From a virus: a stretch of 64,000 nt of DNA. Location of the stretch: the IMG/VR virus record IMGVR_UViG_3300028388_004484, positions 1-64,000 of that record. The stretch is one strand, 5' to 3'. Numbering within the stretch: the first letter of the stretch is position 1; every line of letters starts with the position of its first letter. The translations under genes and the position numbers were made by a program. Under the pieces are notes generated by a model, which searched no databases, was not told the DNA's origin, and saw only the letters and a program-made list of their open reading frames with translations. This document shows, piece after piece, positions 20,340-59,100 of this stretch.

Positions 20340-20430
20340 GTCGGAAAGGGAAATGGCCCTGGTGGAAGTTTATAAGTCCTGTTGCGATAGCCCCCACCTT
20401 CCGCTGCCGGTTCGAATCCGGCTTCCGTCA
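20340..20430 (+). other. tRNA-like element (class II size, degenerate)
   Basis: GCCGG-TTCGAAT-CCGGC (20,406-20,422) is a perfect T-arm and is followed by TTCCGTC-A, a 3' acceptor strand. GTCGGAA at 20,340 pairs with it at 6 of 7 positions, and 91 nt fits a long-variable-arm tRNA. However, no good anticodon arm is found between, and the 3' end is ACA rather than CCA. It may be a decayed tRNA or an attachment remnant marking the left edge of the cassette island. Confidence 0.4.
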
Positions 20431-20499
20431 CAAATTAAAATGAAAAATATTAATCAATCAAACCCCAGCGATAACATCAAAGGGGCAAAAATTTTCCGC

Positions 20500-20703
20500 A
20501 TGGCTACCTATAAAATAAAAATGACCCTGCCAACACAGTGGGTTATCACAACAGAAGCTTCATCTGAAGAAGAAGCAATTCAAAAAGCATTGAAAGCGGA
20601 TCCGCCATCACAACTTGCTTATCAAGATGACGATGAATGGCAGCCTGACATCATGGAATGGCCGTTTGTTGCTGGAATGACTATTGATGCATATGAAGAT
20701 TGA
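20500..20703 (+). CDS. Island protein (unknown)
   Basis: 67 residues from the ATG of MATYKIKMTL; a longer reading back into the tRNA-like element is unlikely. Rich in Glu, Asp and Gln, with EASSEEEAIQKALKAD. Codons are AT-rich compared with the flanking phage genes, which marks it as part of the acquired island. Function unknown. Confidence 0.6.
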   Translation: MATYKIKMTLPTQWVITTEASSEEEAIQKALKADPPSQLAYQDDDEWQPDIMEWPFVAGMTIDAYED

Positions 20704-20724
20704 TTTAAGCAATTTAAAAGAAAA

Positions 20725-20978
20725 ATGATTATGATAACAAAAAAAAAGCAGCAAAATTCTGGGCTGATTATTTTGATGCAGATAAGCAAGAAGGATTGCA
20801 CTGTCACCACATGACAATTGATTGCATGGTGCTTTTTGCACAAGAGCAAGTAAAAAACTGCTCTATACCCGTTGTTGTAGGGCGAAGCGAATTAAAGGCT
20901 TTTGCTGAATACCTTGATGAAATACATGGTGGAGAATTTGCAGTAAATGAAATTGATAACTTTATGAAAAGCCTTTGA
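20725..20978 (+). pseudogene. Island gene split by a frameshift in an A9 run
   Basis: The ATG at 20,725 opens MIMITKKK, then the frame ends after 29 codons. A second frame beginning at the A9 run (20,739-20,747) stays open to 20,978 and reads KAAKFWADYFDADKQEG onwards. One extra A would join them into about 85 residues. The gene is either broken, mis-sequenced at the homopolymer, or read by slippage. A shorter start at 20,796 is also possible. Function unknown. Confidence 0.55.
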
Positions 20979-20980
20979 TT

Positions 20981-21016
20981 GCCTACAACGGCAAGGCATA
21001 CCCGCAGGCTGGGATT
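20981..21016 (+). repeat. Partial attC-like site
   Basis: GCCTACAACGG begins 3 bases after the stop of the preceding island gene, like the other sites. The expected right half with stem and GTT end is not evident, so the site looks truncated. A near match to its expected partner (GTTGTAGG) lies inside the preceding gene at 20,874 and is treated as chance. Confidence 0.45.
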
Positions 21017-21042
21017 TTAACTTAGATATTTAAAAAGATAGA

Positions 21043-21321
21043 ATGATGCAGCTTAATTTATTCACTGAACTATCCAACGAATCATTAAACCCCAGATTGA
21101 GGGTATGTAATGTTGGCGGTAGTGTTTCTTATCGTCAGCGTTTCGGATTAAATAACCCACCTAAAGGAACAATCCTGAGATTGAAATACATGCCAGGGCT
21201 TAAATGGTATCTTCACTGGGAAGATTGTACCGATGGAGAAGATATAGTTCAAGGGTGGTTCGGCACATCTAAAAAAGCTAAAAACTATGCGCAGGAAAAT
21301 GGTTGGTTGGTTCTGTCTTAA
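21043..21321 (+). CDS. Cassette protein A (unknown)
   Basis: 92 residues with an early QLNLFTEL and a Trp-rich C-terminal half (LKWYLHWEDC, QGWFGTSKKAKNYA). Its attC-like site starts 4 bases after the stop. Oddly, the word complementary to that site (GTTGGCGGTAGTG, 12 of 13 matches) lies inside this ORF at 21,112, not before it, so the cassette boundary may have moved or the ORF may be a fusion. Function unknown. Confidence 0.6.
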   Translation: MMQLNLFTELSNESLNPRLRVCNVGGSVSYRQRFGLNNPPKGTILRLKYMPGLKWYLHWEDCTDGEDIVQGWFGTSKKAKNYAQENGWLVLS

Positions 21322-21325
21322 CATT

Positions 21326-21393
21326 ACCGCCAACGGTTTGGCTATGTGCCGTTGTGAGGTACGAGCAATGGACATATAGCCGTTGTTATGTAC
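21326..21393 (+). repeat. attC-like site A/B
   Basis: ACCGCCAAC-GG opens the site. GGCTATGTG (21,340) pairs with CATATAGCC (21,373) and leaves unpaired bases on one arm, as attC sites do. It closes with GTTATGTAC at 21,385, the start word of the methyltransferase cassette. Length 68 bp lies in the normal attC range. Confidence 0.7.
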
Positions 21394-21451
21394 TGGCACG
21401 GTGAATTACTGATAAGGTTGATTAAATGAACGAAACTAATAATTTTTAAAA

Positions 21452-22237
21452 ATGAGCGATGGCAAATATGCTTTTGAAAAAAGCAAGATAATACAAGGTG
21501 ATTGCCTTGAAAAGATGAAAATGATACCCGATAAAAGTATAGACTTTATTTGTTGTGACCTGCCCTATGGTATGACTGCTCCTAAATGGGATGAAATAAT
21601 ACCTGCTGATAAACTTTGGGAACAATATAATAGGATAATATCTGAAAATGGAACGATAGCTTTATTTGCTTCACAGCCTTTTACAACCAAGCTAATAAGT
21701 AGTAATGAGAAGGATTACAGATATGTATGGTATTGGGTAAAAAACCAAGCGACAAACTTCTTCCACGCTAAACGAATGCCTACGAGGAAAGTTGAGGAAG
21801 TTGTAATATTTAAAAAGGGCAAATACTACCCACAAATAACCGAAGGACACATACCAACAAACAGTGCGAAGGGGTGTAGTAATGGCAAAGCCTATCACGG
21901 AACAAACACGAGAGATTATGAAGGGGGTAAAACTACAAGATACCCAACAAACTTGCTTGAATTTAAGTGTGTAGATAATTACAGTAGAATACACTCCGCA
22001 CAAAAACCTGTTGAATTGATTGAGTACCTTGTAAGGACATATACTGATGAGTTTGATTTGGTACTTGATAATACGAGTGGAAGCGGAACACTTGCAGAAG
22101 CCTGTATAAATACGAACCGAAACTTTATAATTATTGAGAAAAACCCAATTGACTTTGAAAAAGGCAAAGAAAGGGTGGGAAAGATTTTTAAAAATTATGG
22201 GCTTGACCTACAACCTTTATTAGATGAACGAATGTAG
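21452..22237 (+). CDS. Beta-class N6-adenine/N4-cytosine DNA methyltransferase
   Basis: 261 residues. Motif IV is DLPYG at about 36-40, a variant of DPPY, and the AdoMet motif I appears near the C-terminus as LDNTSGSGT. This order (IV before I) marks the beta class. No restriction endonuclease is adjacent, so it is an orphan that could protect phage DNA from host restriction or alter expression. It fills its cassette (21,385-22,295). AT-rich codons support recent acquisition. The target sequence cannot be read from the gene. Confidence 0.9.
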   Translation: MSDGKYAFEKSKIIQGDCLEKMKMIPDKSIDFICCDLPYGMTAPKWDEIIPADKLWEQYNRIISENGTIALFASQPFTTKLISSNEKDYRYVWYWVKNQATNFFHAKRMPTRKVEEVVIFKKGKYYPQITEGHIPTNSAKGCSNGKAYHGTNTRDYEGGKTTRYPTNLLEFKCVDNYSRIHSAQKPVELIEYLVRTYTDEFDLVLDNTSGSGTLAEACINTNRNFIIIEKNPIDFEKGKERVGKIFKNYGLDLQPLLDERM

Positions 22238-22242
22238 TGCTT

Positions 22243-22303
22243 GTACATAACGGCTAAGCGCATATGCCGTGCGTAGCATGGTCATATACGTAGTGTTGGG
22301 CGC
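22243..22303 (+). repeat. attC-like site B/C
   Basis: GTACATAAC-GG opens it, the exact complement of the start of the methyltransferase cassette. GCGCATATG pairs imperfectly with CATATACG. It ends with GTTGGGCGC at 22,295, matching the core GTTRRRY. Length 61 bp. Confidence 0.75.
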
Positions 22304-22320
22304 ATTTCAAATATTACAAT

Positions 22321-22560
22321 ATGACAACATTCGAAAGACTTGCAAATAAAATAAGACGCGATGTAGGTATAGAAACTTATGACCTAAAACGAACCTATGC
22401 AAGATCAGCTAAAGCATCAGGCGCACCCGTTTGGATTGGGAAAATAAAGGGGTCTAATCTTGAGGTCGTGAGCGGATATACCGCCACCGAGTTACTAAAG
22501 TCTCCAAAGCTAAAAAAGGTTAGCGGGTGGTCTTTCGGTGAAATAGAGATCGAGCCTTAA
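22321..22560 (+). CDS. Cassette protein C (unknown)
   Basis: 79 residues, basic (KIRRDVGIETYDLKRTYARS), with a C-terminal GWSFGEIEIEP. It starts 17 bases after the cassette start word and its attC-like site begins 2 bases after its stop, so the gene fills the cassette. Family unknown. Confidence 0.7.
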   Translation: MTTFERLANKIRRDVGIETYDLKRTYARSAKASGAPVWIGKIKGSNLEVVSGYTATELLKSPKLKKVSGWSFGEIEIEP

Positions 22561-22562
22561 TT

Positions 22563-22621
22563 GCGCCCAACGGTTTGGCTATACGCCTGTACTTGTATGG
22601 CGTATAGGTGTTGTTGTAGGT
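22563..22621 (+). repeat. attC-like site C/D
   Basis: GCGCCCAAC-GG opens it and is the exact complement of this cassette's start word. CTATACGCC (22,579) and GGCGTATAG (22,599) form a perfect 9-bp stem with an 11-nt loop. It closes with GTTGTAGGT at 22,613. Length 59 bp. This is the clearest of the sites. Confidence 0.8.
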
Positions 22622-22666
22622 ATGTAAGCCTACGGAATTAAAAACGAAAACTTTAAAATAGATACA

Positions 22667-22852
22667 ATGGACGAATTATTGAAACAACTTGGATTTGAAT
22701 ACATGACTGGGTCAATTTGGAAGCATGAGAAAATAGGTATTATCTCAATTTCTGAGAATGATAAACCAATTGATTTAGTGCAAAAGATATATGATAGGGG
22801 CTATGAAGAGTGTCAAATAATAATAAGGTCAAGTCTTGGCATTAAAGGTTAG
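22667..22852 (+). CDS. Cassette protein D (unknown)
   Basis: 61 residues with GFEYMTGSIWKHEKIGIISI and VQKIYDRGYEECQIII. AT-rich codons. The gene lies between GTTGTAGGT (22,613) and its complement ACCTACAAC (22,863). No family recognised. Confidence 0.65.
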   Translation: MDELLKQLGFEYMTGSIWKHEKIGIISISENDKPIDLVQKIYDRGYEECQIIIRSSLGIKG

Positions 22853-22862
22853 TAGGCTTATT

Positions 22863-22885
22863 ACCTACAACGGTTTGGTTATGCA
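22863..22885 (+). repeat. Truncated attC-like site at the right edge
   Basis: ACCTACAAC-GGTTTGGTTATGC matches the opening of the other sites and is the exact complement of the start word of cassette D. The right half is absent; ordinary phage leader sequence follows. This is the right edge of the island. Confidence 0.65.
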
Positions 22886-24556: not shown

Positions 24557-24777
24557 TTTTCTTACGATTTTCTTACACGCAAAAGTTTAGTTTTTACTAA
24601 ACTTCTGTCGCTCAATAATTTTACTTTCCGGTCCTGTAGTTCAAGGGATAGAACGACCTTTACCTTCTTTTGCTTCTTCCTGCCTTTAAAATGCCGTTTT
24701 AAATAAGGCCGGATCGCTTTTTTGAAGCGGTAGAAAGCAGCAGGGGCTTGTTCGGTTCTTACCTATTTCTTACATTT
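24557..24777. other. Putative phage attachment region with tRNA 5' half
   Basis: Directly upstream of the integrase. It holds TTTTCTTAC at 24,557 and 24,568, TTCTTAC again at 24,757 and 24,768 (possible arm-type sites), a perfect hairpin AAGTTTAGT-TTTT-ACTAAACTT (24,583-24,604), and GGTCCTG-TA-GTTC-AAGGGATA-GAAC (24,630-24,654), which is the acceptor and D-arm of a tRNA (Arg-like). No matching 3' half is seen, so the tRNA piece is probably att identity rather than a gene. Confidence 0.5.
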
Positions 24778-24792
24778 GAAAAAAAGCAAGAC

Positions 24793-26010
24793 ATGAAAAT
24801 TAACTTCCGATGGAACCGGCGGAAGAAAACCGACGGCCGCGGCCGGGCGCCGGTAGAACTCCGAATTTATATTAATGGCCTGGAAAGGTACGTAAATACC
24901 GGGATACTTTTAAAGGCCGGGCAGTGGAACGGGAAAGTGCAGCGGTCGAAAGATCACCCCGAAGCCGCTGCAATAAACCTTCGTTTGTCTGACCTGGAAA
25001 ATAGGGCCTTCCGGTTTTATCATTCCCGCCTTTCCGAAGGGCTTCCCCTTTCGGCCGGATCCGTCAAAGATTTTTTAGAAGGGAACATCCAGCGGCCAGA
25101 AGAACTTATATCTTTTATCGAAGATATGATCCGGATGAACCCGAAGGGCCTTTCCGAAGGAACGCTTAAGCAGCGGCGAACGATGGTCGCTTACCTTCGG
25201 GACTTCCGGCGCCAGATCCCTTTTTCGGAAGTCGATGGATATTTTGTTACGGCCTTTGAAGGGTATCTTCGTAAATTTGAAGATAACTACGGGGCAGGCT
25301 CGCGAACCCGGGGCGCAAAAAAACTTTCGGGCAACTACATTTCTTCCCTTCTTTCGATCCTGAAAATTTATACCGGGGAAGCGATGCGGCAAGGCATAAT
25401 TCGTGCGGATCCCTTTATCGGAATTAGGATCCAAAAAACTAAAAGCGAACGTACCTACCTGACGATGGAAGAGATTAAAGCCTTTTCCCGGGTAACAATG
25501 CCGGGCCGGCGTGCCCGCTTCGAAGAAAGCATGGATAAATTTTTATTCTGCGCATATACAGGCCTTCGATATTCGGATTTAATTGACCTGAAAGGGAAAC
25601 ATATTAAAACGTCGATTGGCGGTCTTAGGCTCGTTAAAAAGCCGTTAAAGACAAAACGAGTTGGAACGACGATTAATCTTCCCTTATATTCTCTTTTTTG
25701 GGGACGGCCCGAAGCGATCGTTAAAAAATGGATGGAAGGGAAGCGGCCTAAAGATTCCCTGGCGCCCGGGCTTGACCTTTCAACTTACAATAATCATTTA
25801 AATGAGATTGCTCAAGCTGCCGGGATCCGGAAGCGGGTAACAAGCCATGCGGCCCGGCATACCTTTGCGATGATCCTATTAAACGATTTCCGCTTCCCTG
25901 TCGAATACGTCCGGCGGCTGATGGGGCATTCTGATATTTCGACAACGGAAGTATACGCAAAACTTACCGATCAAAGCTTAGATAGGCTTATCGATTCAGC
26001 TTTTGAATAA
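24793..26010 (+). CDS. int: Tyrosine recombinase (integrase)
   Basis: 405 residues from MKINFRWNRR, preceded by the AAAAGCAAG leader. The N-terminus has the arm-binding domain usual in Bacteroidota integrases, then a SAM-like core-binding domain. Catalytic residues are Arg259 (GLRYSD), His352-x-x-Arg355 (HAARH), His379 (MGHSD) and Tyr388 (VYAKL). It would integrate phage DNA, probably at the adjacent tRNA-like site. It is not an integron integrase, as no extra IntI-type insertion is seen. Confidence 0.92.
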   Translation: MKINFRWNRRKKTDGRGRAPVELRIYINGLERYVNTGILLKAGQWNGKVQRSKDHPEAAAINLRLSDLENRAFRFYHSRLSEGLPLSAGSVKDFLEGNIQRPEELISFIEDMIRMNPKGLSEGTLKQRRTMVAYLRDFRRQIPFSEVDGYFVTAFEGYLRKFEDNYGAGSRTRGAKKLSGNYISSLLSILKIYTGEAMRQGIIRADPFIGIRIQKTKSERTYLTMEEIKAFSRVTMPGRRARFEESMDKFLFCAYTGLRYSDLIDLKGKHIKTSIGGLRLVKKPLKTKRVGTTINLPLYSLFWGRPEAIVKKWMEGKRPKDSLAPGLDLSTYNNHLNEIAQAAGIRKRVTSHAARHTFAMILLNDFRFPVEYVRRLMGHSDISTTEVYAKLTDQSLDRLIDSAFE

Positions 26011-38232: not shown

Positions 38233-39405
38233 ATGAGGCGAAGAAAAGAAATAGAAAAAAATGTCTTTGAAGCAACAAAGGACCGGATCCGTTACCTTTA
38301 TTCTCGCTTTGATAACGTGGTCGTTTCTTTTTCGGGCGGGAAAGATTCGACGGCCGCGCTGCATATTACCCGGGAAGTGGCGAAGGAGTTGGGCCGCGGC
38401 CCGGTTCATGTCGTTTTCTTTGATGAAGAGGCTATTCACCCGCCGACTATCGAATATGTCGAAAGGGTCCGCAGGGAACCAGACGTAAAACTTGAATGGT
38501 ATTGCCTGCCCCTTCAAAAAGTAAACGCCTGTTCTACAAAAAACCCCTATTGGTATCCGTGGAATCCTGAAAAAAAGGACCTATGGGTGCGCCCGCTTCC
38601 GGAAGATGTTATTACGGATCATCCGCGCTTTAAGAAAGAACTTTCCTTCCAGGAGTTTTCGGAAGTCCTATTTTACGATATTCCGGAAAGCTTTGTTTTT
38701 GTTACCGGGGTCCGGGCGCAGGAATCCTACCGGCGGCAGCAGATCGTTTTAGCTAAAAAGAACGATAATTATATTTCTAGGCTTCGAAAAAATGTCGCAC
38801 ACGCTCACCCGCTTTACGACTGGAAAAGCGAAGATGTTTGGCGCCTCGTTACCGAAACCGGGATCGACTACAATAAGACCTACGATATTTTAAATAAAAC
38901 GAAGCTATACAATAGTTTGCTTTTCCAGCGTGTCGCGCCGCCTTACGGCCAGGAATCGATTCAGAATCTTTGGTTTTACGCCGAATGCTGGCCGGAAATG
39001 TGGCATAAGATGTTAAACCGCGTCCCCGGGGTAGCGACGGCGTGGAGATACGCGAAAACGGAACTTTATGGCGTCGGGGATTTTACGAAGCCCGAAGAAT
39101 TGACATGGAAGCAGTACTTAAATGTTATCGTAAAAAGGTACGGGAATAAGGAACGGAAGATTATTCGGAGAAATATTAATGATATAATAAAGAAGCATTA
39201 CGATAAAACAGATTTAGCGATTCCGGAAGAAAGCAACCATCCGCTTACCGGCGTATGCTGGAAAGACCTTTGCAAAATTGCAACTAGGGGCGATCTAAAA
39301 GGCCGGGCCGCGAACAACTTTGATCTTAAGGCGATCCGGGTCCGGGAAAAGTTGGGAATTGAATCATACGAAGAAGCGTTGAAAATTTATGGAAAAAAGA
39401 AGTAA
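38233..39405 (+). CDS. PAPS reductase-like (IbrA/DndC-type) protein
   Basis: 390 residues. A PP-loop SFSGGKDST (32-40) marks the adenine-nucleotide alpha-hydrolase fold of PAPS reductases. The length and the adjoining ParB-like gene match IbrA, the partner of IbrB, known as co-activators of prophage genes in E. coli. DndC, which adds sulfur to DNA, shares the fold. No sulfur-metabolism genes accompany it. It overlaps the next gene by 17 bp. Confidence 0.8.
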   Translation: MRRRKEIEKNVFEATKDRIRYLYSRFDNVVVSFSGGKDSTAALHITREVAKELGRGPVHVVFFDEEAIHPPTIEYVERVRREPDVKLEWYCLPLQKVNACSTKNPYWYPWNPEKKDLWVRPLPEDVITDHPRFKKELSFQEFSEVLFYDIPESFVFVTGVRAQESYRRQQIVLAKKNDNYISRLRKNVAHAHPLYDWKSEDVWRLVTETGIDYNKTYDILNKTKLYNSLLFQRVAPPYGQESIQNLWFYAECWPEMWHKMLNRVPGVATAWRYAKTELYGVGDFTKPEELTWKQYLNVIVKRYGNKERKIIRRNINDIIKKHYDKTDLAIPEESNHPLTGVCWKDLCKIATRGDLKGRAANNFDLKAIRVREKLGIESYEEALKIYGKKK

Positions 39406-39915: not shown

Positions 39916-40455
39916 ATGAAAAAGGGAACACGATTAACGAAGAAGAAAAAAATAGCAATCGCCGAAGCTATCTGCGCGAAGTATTCGACGGGTAAATATA
40001 CGCTTCAAAGTTGCTGTAAATCGGAAGGTTTGGTCGATACTACCTTTTATTCGTGGTCGAAACAGATACCGGAAGTTGGGGCCGCTTTTAAAAAGGCACA
40101 GGAAGCCGCCAGGGCGAACGAATTTGAAGAACTAAGGGAAATATCCAGAACTACCCTAAAGAAGCGCCTACAGGGATACACGGTAACGGAAAAGAAAACT
40201 TTGTACGTTCCAAGCAAGGACGGGGAACCGGAAATCCGAAGCAGCGAAGTAAGAGAAAAGTATATTCCGCCTTCCGATACGGCCCTTATCTTTTTCCTTA
40301 CGAATAAAGATCCGGAAAATTTCAAGCATCGCCGTGCGGTCGAAGTATCCGGCGAACTTAGCACCGGTTCGACTGTTGACTTTTCGAAGCTTTCTGATGA
40401 ACAAGTCAACCAGCTTTTAGAAATCTTTGAAAGTCAAAACGGCGATAATGAATGA
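39916..40455 (+). CDS. Terminase small subunit (putative)
   Basis: 179 residues: a basic start, then a helix-turn-helix-like segment (YTLQSCCKSEGLVDTTFYSW), then a helical middle that would form the ring. It overlaps the large subunit by 4 bp. It would choose the DNA to be packaged. Confidence 0.75.
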   Translation: MKKGTRLTKKKKIAIAEAICAKYSTGKYTLQSCCKSEGLVDTTFYSWSKQIPEVGAAFKKAQEAARANEFEELREISRTTLKKRLQGYTVTEKKTLYVPSKDGEPEIRSSEVREKYIPPSDTALIFFLTNKDPENFKHRRAVEVSGELSTGSTVDFSKLSDEQVNQLLEIFESQNGDNE

Positions 40456-56131: not shown

Positions 56132-59100
56132 ATGAAAGTTATAGCTTATAGAATACGGGTCGACGGCGCGGATATAGTCGTAAAAACGCAACAGGACTTG
56201 CGAAAGGCAATCCGTGACGTAAATAAAGCCCTTGACGATACCGAAATCGGGTCGAAGCGATACCAAAAGTTACAAAAGGAATTAGGCCGGCTAAAGGAAA
56301 CCCAAAAGCGGGTTCGGCAGGACACCCGGGATGCCGGCCGCGAATTTATCCGGTCAGCGGACCGCGGTAAGCGTTCTTACCGTTCTTTAAATGCCGAACT
56401 TGTAAACCTAAAGCGGCAGTACAAAGAACTAAGCGAAGCGGACCGGAATTCTAATACCGGCCGCGGCCTTTTAAAGCAGATTCGCGGCCTTTCAAAGGAA
56501 TTAAAAGGGATTGACAAAACGCTGGGGGATAACTTCCGGAATGTGGGAAATTACCAATCAGCTTTAAAAGGGGTATTCGGAAAGCTTGCCCTGGGCGCCG
56601 CTGCTTTGGGGATCGCTACCGGGATCCGGGAAATAGGAGCGGCGGCAAAGGAAGCCTTCCGAACTTTTGTCGACTTCCGGGATCAAGTTGCGATCCTGGG
56701 CGCCGTTTCCGGCGCGACGGCCGAAGAACTTAAAGTTTTGGAAGAAGAAGCGAAGCGCTTAGGGGAATCAACGCAATTTACAGCATCGCAAGTCGCCGAA
56801 CTACAAACGAACTTTGCCCGGGCGGGCTTCGATCCTTCGCAAATTATAGCGGCGACGGAAGCAACCCTGTCTTTGGCGACGGCTACCGGCGAAGATCTGG
56901 CACGTTCTTCCGAAGTTGTAACGACTACGCTTGGCGGCTATCAACTTACGGCGCAGGATACGGAACGGGCCACAAACGCCATGACGGCGGCCTTTAATAC
57001 TTCCCGTTTGCAGCTTGAAAGCTTCTTTGAAGCGACAAAAATTGTAGCGCCGAACGCGGCTTCTTTGGGCGTCGAAATTGAACAGGTAAACGCCGTTTTG
57101 GGCGCCTTAGCCGATGCCGGTATTGATGGAAGTAGTGCGGGGACGGCCCTACGGCGAATCTTCCTTGAAATGTCAAAAGAAAGTAGTAAGCTTTCCGGCG
57201 TGCTGGGCGTTACCGTAAAAGACGCGGAAAGTTTTAACCTTGCGCTTGAAAGATTAGGGGAAATTGATGTGACCCCCGAATTAGCAGACGAATTAGTCGG
57301 CAAGCGGGCCTTAACGGCTTTGCAGCTTCTTTCTACGCAGTCGGATAAGATCCGCGGCCTTTCGGCGGCGTATGGGTCCGTAACGGGGGAAATTGATAAG
57401 CTAGGCTTAACCATTGAAGATATTCCCGAAAAATTCCAGGACCTTGCCAATGCGGCGGAAACGGCCGGTAAAGTTCAGGATTCTTTAGCCGGCGACACGA
57501 AAGCCCTGGCATCGGCCGCCGAAGGTGTGCAAATTTCTTTCGTCGGCGCCTTCGAAGATATTGGGCGAACGATAACGCAATTTATCACTTCGGCCCTTCG
57601 AAAAGTATCCGGATTTTCCGGCGCCTTCCGAAAGGCATTCGATTTTTTGGTTGATATCTTACGGCCTATCGTCGAAGCCTTCGCAAATTTGGGATCCGCT
57701 ATTTTTGGCGGAACGGAAAAGGTGATAACTTTTGAAGATGTTCTTAGGACCCTTTCATCCGTTCTTACTTTCCTTTCAAATGTTTTGGCGACGGCCGTAA
57801 ATTGGATGGCCGAATTTATCACTGAATTACGGGACGGGATTAATGAGATACCCCTTTTAAAAGGCCTTTTTGACGGGCTTGTTACCGGGGTAAAGGACCT
57901 GGTTTCCTTATTCCTTGACCTTCCGAACATTTTTAACGGCGTTTTAGAATCCGTTAAGGCCTTCCGGGACAATATCAAAAATCTTAATTGGGAAAGAAGC
58001 ATTAGCGATGCCTTTGAAAACGGTTACTATTCTGCGCAGCGCCTTGCTTCGGGTATGATGTCCGCGCAGGAAGCGGCCGAAGGTTTGCTAGGAATTGTAA
58101 AGGAAGTAAATGACCTTCCGATAGGTGTCCGGGCGCCGGGTATACCCGATGCGGCGGCGCCGATAATTACCGATGTTGAACCGGATCCGGAAGGCGATGA
58201 CACCTTCGACGGATTAAAGGAAAGCGCCACCGCGGCGGAAGGTTCTATTAAATTCCTAAAAGATCGGATTTCTTCCCTTAAAAATGAGTTGGAAGATTTA
58301 AACGACGATAACAACATCGCCGATAAATTAGAAGAAATTATAGACGCAGAAGCGGACCTGGAAAAGGCACAGAAAAGAATAGAATCCATAAAGGAAGATT
58401 TGAAATTTGCCGACGGGCAAACGATCGACCTTTTAGTCGATGTTATCGACTTTGATTCTTCGGCCGTAGATAGGGAAATTGATCGCATCACCGACGAATC
58501 ATTTAAGGCGGTCGAAGAAGCTATCCAACGGGAAGGAATTAAGCGGGTCGAAGCGGCCCGAAAAGCGATCGAATCCGATAAGGAATTTCAGGCGGCGCGG
58601 AAGAAGATCGAAGAAGAAACGCAGCGGGAACTCCTGGAAGCCCGCCTTCGGGCCGCGGAAGAAGGAAGCCTTGCGCAGGCGAAGTTAATACAGGAATTAG
58701 CCGACCTGGAAACTGATATTAACCGGGAAAAAAACGAGGCGATTTTAAAGCAGGAAGAAGAAGCGGCGACGCAGCGGAAAGCACTTTTGGAAGAAGTTTT
58801 AAACGAAAGCTTTTCGATTATTTCGGATGTTTCGCAGCTTATCTTTTCGATCGACGCCGAACGGATCGAAAACACAAAGAATGCGCAAATAGCGGCTATT
58901 AACGAACAGGAAGAAGCGCGTTTGCAAGAATACGCGAATAATGAAGAAGCACAAAACGAAATCCGGGCCGAAGCGGAAGAAGAACGGCAGAAGATCGAAG
59001 CCGAAGCGGCGAAAAAGCAACAGGCTTTAGCCGTCAAGCAGGCGATTATTAACGCGGCTTTGGCAGTTACCAAAATATTTGCGACGCTTCCGCCACCGGC

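Follow-up and report, generated by a model that had tools for sequence, protein, structure and literature searches.

An integrase-less integron cassette array with apparently reversed gene polarity in a temperate phage of Bacteroidota

Integrons are genetic platforms in which a promoter drives cassette genes that point away from the attI site. In the chromosomal integrons used here as a yardstick (60 loci carrying genuine integron integrases, IntI), the R' and R'' ends of each cassette are complementary to each other, the cores are of the G|TT type, insertion occurs at one fixed end (attI), and the bottom-strand hairpin is the more stable in most of the sites. All these features are shared with the phage arrays considered below. 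These integrons differ from the phage arrays in that IntI is present, their L'' bulges are clear, and their genes follow the polarity of attC, the locus L113 being an exception to this last point. The choice of the attC strand and the extra-helical bases have been described previously (PMC2727003), as have promoters carried on cassettes (PMC8876359).

The most closely related systems are the phage CALINs of Qi et al. (2023; PMC9892861), especially that of Polaribacter phage P12002L: these are attC clusters lacking an integrase and carrying methyltransferase cargo, as in the 64,000-nucleotide stretch of DNA analyzed here (the window). In the available parts of that paper, the activity of IntI1 on phage attC sites is documented in vivo, one of two Polaribacter phage sites having been recombined, and "divergent directions" are noted in P12002L; reversed gene polarity, an attI-like point, and natural cassette movement are not described in those parts. 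The novelty of phage-borne cassettes implied by the initial annotation of the window is therefore not upheld, since both the cassettes and the IntI1 assays had already been published. One P12002L site (locus L187, 32280–32224, minus strand) has the loop GTTGTGAGGTACGAGCAATG of the second site in the window. The Baltic Sea Flavobacterium phages (Muminvirus, Lillamyvirus, Hattifnattvirus; PMC7077304) resemble the window in carrying reversed cassette arrays with several methyltransferases, but they are lytic, their genome is different, and their array is complete, with an attI-like point; the word integron is absent from the paper describing them. An atypical relative orientation of integron parts, as found here, is also known in Treponema (PMC3607928), where the integrase gene is flipped with respect to the cassettes, whereas in the phages the genes are flipped with respect to attC. 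No description of reversed cassettes as a class was found in the open-licence literature, and the new aspect of the present locus appears to be the polarity of its cassettes.

The phage and its cassette array

The window covers nearly the whole of a 64.4-kb IMG/VR record, which represents a tailed, temperate Bacteroidota phage. It carries genes for a head maturation protease (at 221), a terminase (at 40452), a tape measure protein (at 56132), and a phage tyrosine integrase (24748–26010, plus strand) with the domains Arm-DNA-bind_5, SAM_5, and Phage_integrase. Since the closest relatives of the terminase include those of Croceibacter (47%) and Cellulophaga (44%) phages and the best identified relatives of the integrase (about 27%) belong to Bacteroides phages, a host within the Bacteroidota is the most likely one. 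The tyrosine recombinase, the only one in the record, was considered as a candidate IntI and rejected: it scored 43 bits with the integron-integrase model, as against a cut-off of 265, and is an ordinary phage integrase. No intI gene was detected with this model in the 64.4-kb record and no attI was recognized in the window, which bears out the initial description of the block as phage-borne cassettes of the integron type with no IntI. Scans with the flanking proteins and the integrase yielded no close relative of the phage, and none in which the array site is different or empty. A gene resembling those of phosphoadenosine phosphosulfate reductases, which are frequent accessory genes of phages, lies at 38233–39405.

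The block delimited initially (20433–22885) is indeed AT-rich, with a GC content of 0.38–0.41 vs. about 0.47. At its left edge, a sequence resembling the 3' end of a tRNA (GGTTCGAATCC...TTCCGTCAC, 20409–20432, plus strand) was read directly, 4.3 kb ahead of the phage integrase; no complete tRNA was called at this position, no exact match was found among 296 genomes, and the sequence is possibly attP.

In an unbiased search, sites were sought as AAC/GTT cores linked by a complementary stem, and a unit with such a site was called a cassette when the nine bases opening the unit matched the nine closing it in reverse complement. The first search recovered all the sites claimed initially, together with a longer one at 20981–21120; the second detected exactly three cassettes in the 64-kb window, all within the block, and a fourth one ends at a half-site (22863–22871) with an exact ten-base repeat. 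When the window and the methyltransferase-bearing loci were searched together (about 1.65 Mb of strand-bases), 60 cassette matches were obtained, amounting to about 30 distinct ones as each locus was searched on both strands, vs. one match in first-order shuffles. The three repeat pairs quoted in the initial annotation are exact, and a fourth had been overlooked (21112 GTTGGCGGT / ACCGCCAAC at 21334); the pairs in the window agree at 6 of 6 positions beyond GTT, the chance of which is about 3e-4 each on the basis of composition. The search for at least two sites with RYYYAAC...GTTRRRY-type cores gave four plus the half-site, the cores being loose (GTTRNNN, compared with the strict GTTRRRY).

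Positions 20981–22871 thus contain four sites resembling attC and four ORF-bearing units, each bounded by inverted repeats that match each other, all on the plus strand. The cassettes are delimited here in the reversed reading, in which each would consist of its own attC followed by its gene. Site 1 (20981–21120) is about 140 bp long, and the start codon (21043) of the following 92-aa ORF (21043–21321, no family) lies in its terminal loop; together they form cassette A (20989–21333). Cassette B (21334–22250) consists of site 2 (21326–21393) and a gene (21452–22237) encoding a 261-aa N6/N4 DNA methyltransferase (PF01555, 2.8e-21; phrog_67, 3.5e-66), in keeping with the methyltransferase announced initially. 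Site 3 (22243–22303) and a 79-aa ORF (22321–22560, no family) make up cassette C (22251–22570), and site 4 (22563–22621) and a 61-aa ORF (22667–22852, no family above noise) make up cassette D (22571–22870). The terminal repeats of cassettes A to D match at 14, 13, 13, and 11 of 15 bases, respectively, the first 10 being exact in D. No relatives of the 79-aa and 92-aa ORFs were found. The length of 59–68 bp given initially holds for all the sites except the first.

Both ends of the array are truncated. On the right, a half attC (22863–22885, plus strand; AAC and the left arm GGTTTGGTTATG) forms the edge, which is the attI side in the reversed reading. On the left, the first 0.55 kb of the block (20433–20980) holds a truncated cassette alone (20739–20989, plus strand), so that this part of the initial delimitation does not contain a complete unit. 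Its ORF (20739–20978) has no in-frame start, a run of nine A's (20739–20747) separating it from an out-of-frame ATG at 20728; the right arm of its attC lies at about 20864–20873 and R' (GTTGTAGGG) at 20874. An arm-plus-core stretch of about 40–46 bp (AAAAACTGCTCTATACCCGTTGTTGTAGGGCRAAGCGA, coding KNCSIPVVVG) is common to three ORFs differing at their N and C ends (20845–20890 in the window, about 3026–3070 in L202, and about 3008–3052 in L203), and looks like an attC arm and core used as coding sequence.

The sites form imperfect hairpins with R and L boxes. At sites 1–3, folding clearly favors the plus strand, and at site 4 the two strands are about equal (-10.2 vs. -10.5). If the cassettes are read as reversed, there is one extra-helical base in each of sites 2 and 3, none in site 1, and one in the other arm of site 4; the conserved extra-helical base of L'' occurs inconsistently, and most of the phage sites show G.T/A.C mismatches instead. 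A covariance model built from the phage sites of other arrays (R1) weakly matches two of the four window sites at E 0.02–0.06 (site 2, 20.8 bits, E 0.017; site 3, 18.6 bits, E 0.063), and no attC-like family was hit in Rfam 15. The block is an integrase-less, CALIN-like integron cassette array.

Polarity of the cassettes

Polarity was read from the asymmetry of the spacers, calibrated on the IntI-adjacent arrays, and was counted only at sites where both ends had been verified by terminal repeats. In the IntI-adjacent arrays, the left and right spacers measure about 2–3 and 5–6, respectively, in the direction of the gene, the short spacer being on the stop-codon side and the long one opposite, and the first arm is bulged. 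In the phage sites this picture is mirrored, with spacers of about 5 and 2. This asymmetry was opposite to that of the IntI-adjacent arrays in all four window sites and in 130 of the 131 phage site-ORF pairs. Beside IntI, the ORF and attC have the same direction in 120 of the 133 pairs and opposite directions in 13. In the IMG/VR arrays and the window, two loci of which (L025 and L076) are putatively viral, the direction is the same in one of 31 pairs and opposite in 30; in the isolated Flavobacterium phages, it is the same in none of 100 pairs, which come from related genomes with repeated cassettes and are not independent. The lone concordant pair, in the window, involves a minus-strand ORF within a 223-bp unit.

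These patterns indicate that the attC sites of the window face against the genes and that each gene would travel with an attC at its 5' end. The initial annotation had each gene followed by its own attC: the sites do lie 2–5 bases past the stop codons, but each would belong to the cassette of the next gene. If the order is attC and then gene, it is no longer odd that the 92-aa ORF should start inside site 1, or that another ORF should start within a 217-nt site of L202. The canonical bottom strand then corresponds to the plus strand of the window, and it folds more stably in 15 of the 17 distinct sites of the IMG/VR arrays and the window, in 44 of the 69 sites in IntI loci, and in 19 of the 26 in Flavobacterium phages. 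R1 matched 40 times in the phage-side loci, 39 of these matches lying on the strand of the gene; the IntI-adjacent loci that were searched contained no strong site by this model and gave only four weak matches.

Homologous cassettes occur in other phage arrays, which agrees with the initial annotation, and methyltransferases of the same family are present in similar cassettes on other viral contigs. The terminal repeats of the methyltransferase cassettes change together on both sides: GTTATGTAC/GTACATAAC in the window, GTTACCTAC/GTAGGTAAC in L016, and GTTAGCAGT/ACTGCTAAC in L004. A tyrosine recombinase was detectable in only one of the 11 methyltransferase-bearing viral records (L002), the methyltransferase locus of which yields no cassette. 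The locus L013 is contained, with full identity, in L082, a contig of a Bacteroidetes MAG (GWB2_32_14), in which one cassette end has decayed to AAT. In L012, L025, L040, and L004, the terminal loops of many of the 80–95 nt phage-side attC sites share a motif like TTNAAATTWASCACWAAYGTTGATGG.

In the IntI-adjacent array of L113 (2857–7817), several cassettes are reversed, among which are those of a Dam methyltransferase of phage type (PF05869) and of a 92-aa ORF present twice; reversed cassettes can therefore be accommodated in a true integron. With the covariance model, sites of the phage subtype were identified on chromosomes in at least six of 395 genomes (seven sites), which is an undercount because just 13 candidates were scored per genome, and inspection of the flanking ORFs showed a conventional gene orientation in all seven. 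IntI scored above the curated cut-off in 105 of these 395 genomes, which belong to the phylum of a Bacteroidetes MAG (G001; G011–G404), a number exceeding what was expected from earlier surveys of Bacteroidetes; earlier IntegronFinder results had shown only In0 elements in this group (PMC9024848).

As for the preference for reversed genes, a simple idea is that phage transcription may run toward the entry point and that only cassettes of this kind would be kept.

Cassette movement in Flavobacterium phages

In the Flavobacterium phage loci (L186 and L188–L201), the array lies in the first 9–10 kb. When sniff9-2 was compared with sniff9-1 over 12 kb, one 439-bp unit was found to be lost, the flanks being 100% identical. 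The same unit, 100% identical, is internal in lillamy9-1 and occupies the first position in lillamy9-7, where it adjoins the constant TATTTTTTATCATGTAATATTGTA|GTTA. Its junctions are at GTTAT and it carries the attC spacer of the gene's 5' side (GCAAAGC), which constitutes direct evidence for reversed polarity. All 15 phages have the invariant sequence TATTTTTTATCATGTAATATTGTA ahead of a first cassette that varies, at least seven different ones having been found in this position; this sequence behaves as an attI. GTTA is present at the break in 68 of the 97 distinct homology breakpoints in the array, vs. 7% of random windows. Single cassettes are thus lost and re-inserted precisely at the predicted cut points in these phages. 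No tyrosine recombinase was detected at E<=1 in six complete phage records (five Flavobacterium phages and P12002L), so the enzyme must come from elsewhere. With their constant attI-like site and variable methyltransferase cassettes, these phages form a phage integron platform, which was apparently not recognized as such at the time of publication.

Origin of the array and alternative explanations

Taken together, it is probable that the window holds an integrase-less integron array captured by a temperate Bacteroidota phage, with four complete reversed cassettes, truncated ends, and IntI acting in trans. Each cassette would have its attC on the 5' side of the gene, and the direction of reading would be toward attI. 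With an integron integrase provided by the host or a co-resident element, the site would be folded as single-stranded DNA and cut at G|TT, and the cassettes would be excised as circles and then inserted; a trans-acting integron integrase is most likely what moves them. Since the cassette genes do not point the way in which an integron promoter would drive them, their expression would have to depend on transcription of the phage or on promoters located in or behind attC. The methyltransferase cassette would shield the phage DNA against host restriction, which is most likely its role.

The array might instead be an inactive relic that came down with the phage genome, and ordinary homologous recombination or illegitimate deletion would then account for the differences between phages. 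This is doubtful, although the truncation of both ends makes the window array a possible fossil, and one ORF is out of frame at the nine-A run; as regards the class rather than the window, the exact relocation of a unit with 100% identity to the attI-like point, with about five shared bases, is hard to obtain by homologous exchange. The window's own array may be active, though for this array a remnant is conceivable.

That the anatomy is as described but the recombinase is not IntI (an unrecognized host tyrosine recombinase or another hairpin-specific enzyme) seems improbable. The lack of consistent extra-helical bases, the failure of R1 to detect any strong site in the IntI-adjacent loci searched, and the lack of an integrase in the Flavobacterium phages would fit such an enzyme, but the G|TT cut, the complementarity within each cassette, and the insertion beside one fixed site are integron-like, one of the two Polaribacter phage sites was recombined by IntI1 (PMC9892861), and in one genome (G162) a contig with IntI is accompanied by another contig with an R1-type site.

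It is still less probable that the block is an ordinary CALIN with conventional cassettes, as initially proposed: the stop codons just ahead of the sites are in line with this arrangement and the repeats within each cassette are compatible with either polarity, but the spacer asymmetry is opposite, the moving phage cassettes carry along the 5' attC, and one window ORF would span the cut point. REP-like or transposon repeats, suggested by hairpins sitting between genes, can practically be dismissed, since the repeats vary from unit to unit yet match inside each unit, the block contains no transposase and matches no Rfam family, and the homology breakpoints fall at the cores.

Under the preferred reading of a captured array with reversed cassettes, the genes consistently face the opposite way to those of usual integron cassettes, with a 5' attC able to hold the start codon. 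The Bacteroidota phages may more generally carry split integrons, in which an attI-like entry point and reversed, methyltransferase-rich cassettes are in the phage and the integrase comes from the cell, anti-restriction genes being swapped singly and the host range thereby changed; we regard the chances of this broader proposal as even. The Flavobacterium phages are a natural experiment in this respect: near-identical isolates differ by single cassettes, some of which encode methyltransferases. Flavobacterium phages that plate 1,000–10,000-fold worse on LMO6 lack a specific methyltransferase (PMC7077304). One of the phages named for the host-dependent shift, lillamy9-1, lacks a core-bounded methyltransferase stretch present in snork9-1, and this methyltransferase may be the gene responsible for the shift. 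Such a difference between isolates in plating on one host, in step with a methyltransferase, would tie cassette swapping to the host range of these phages.
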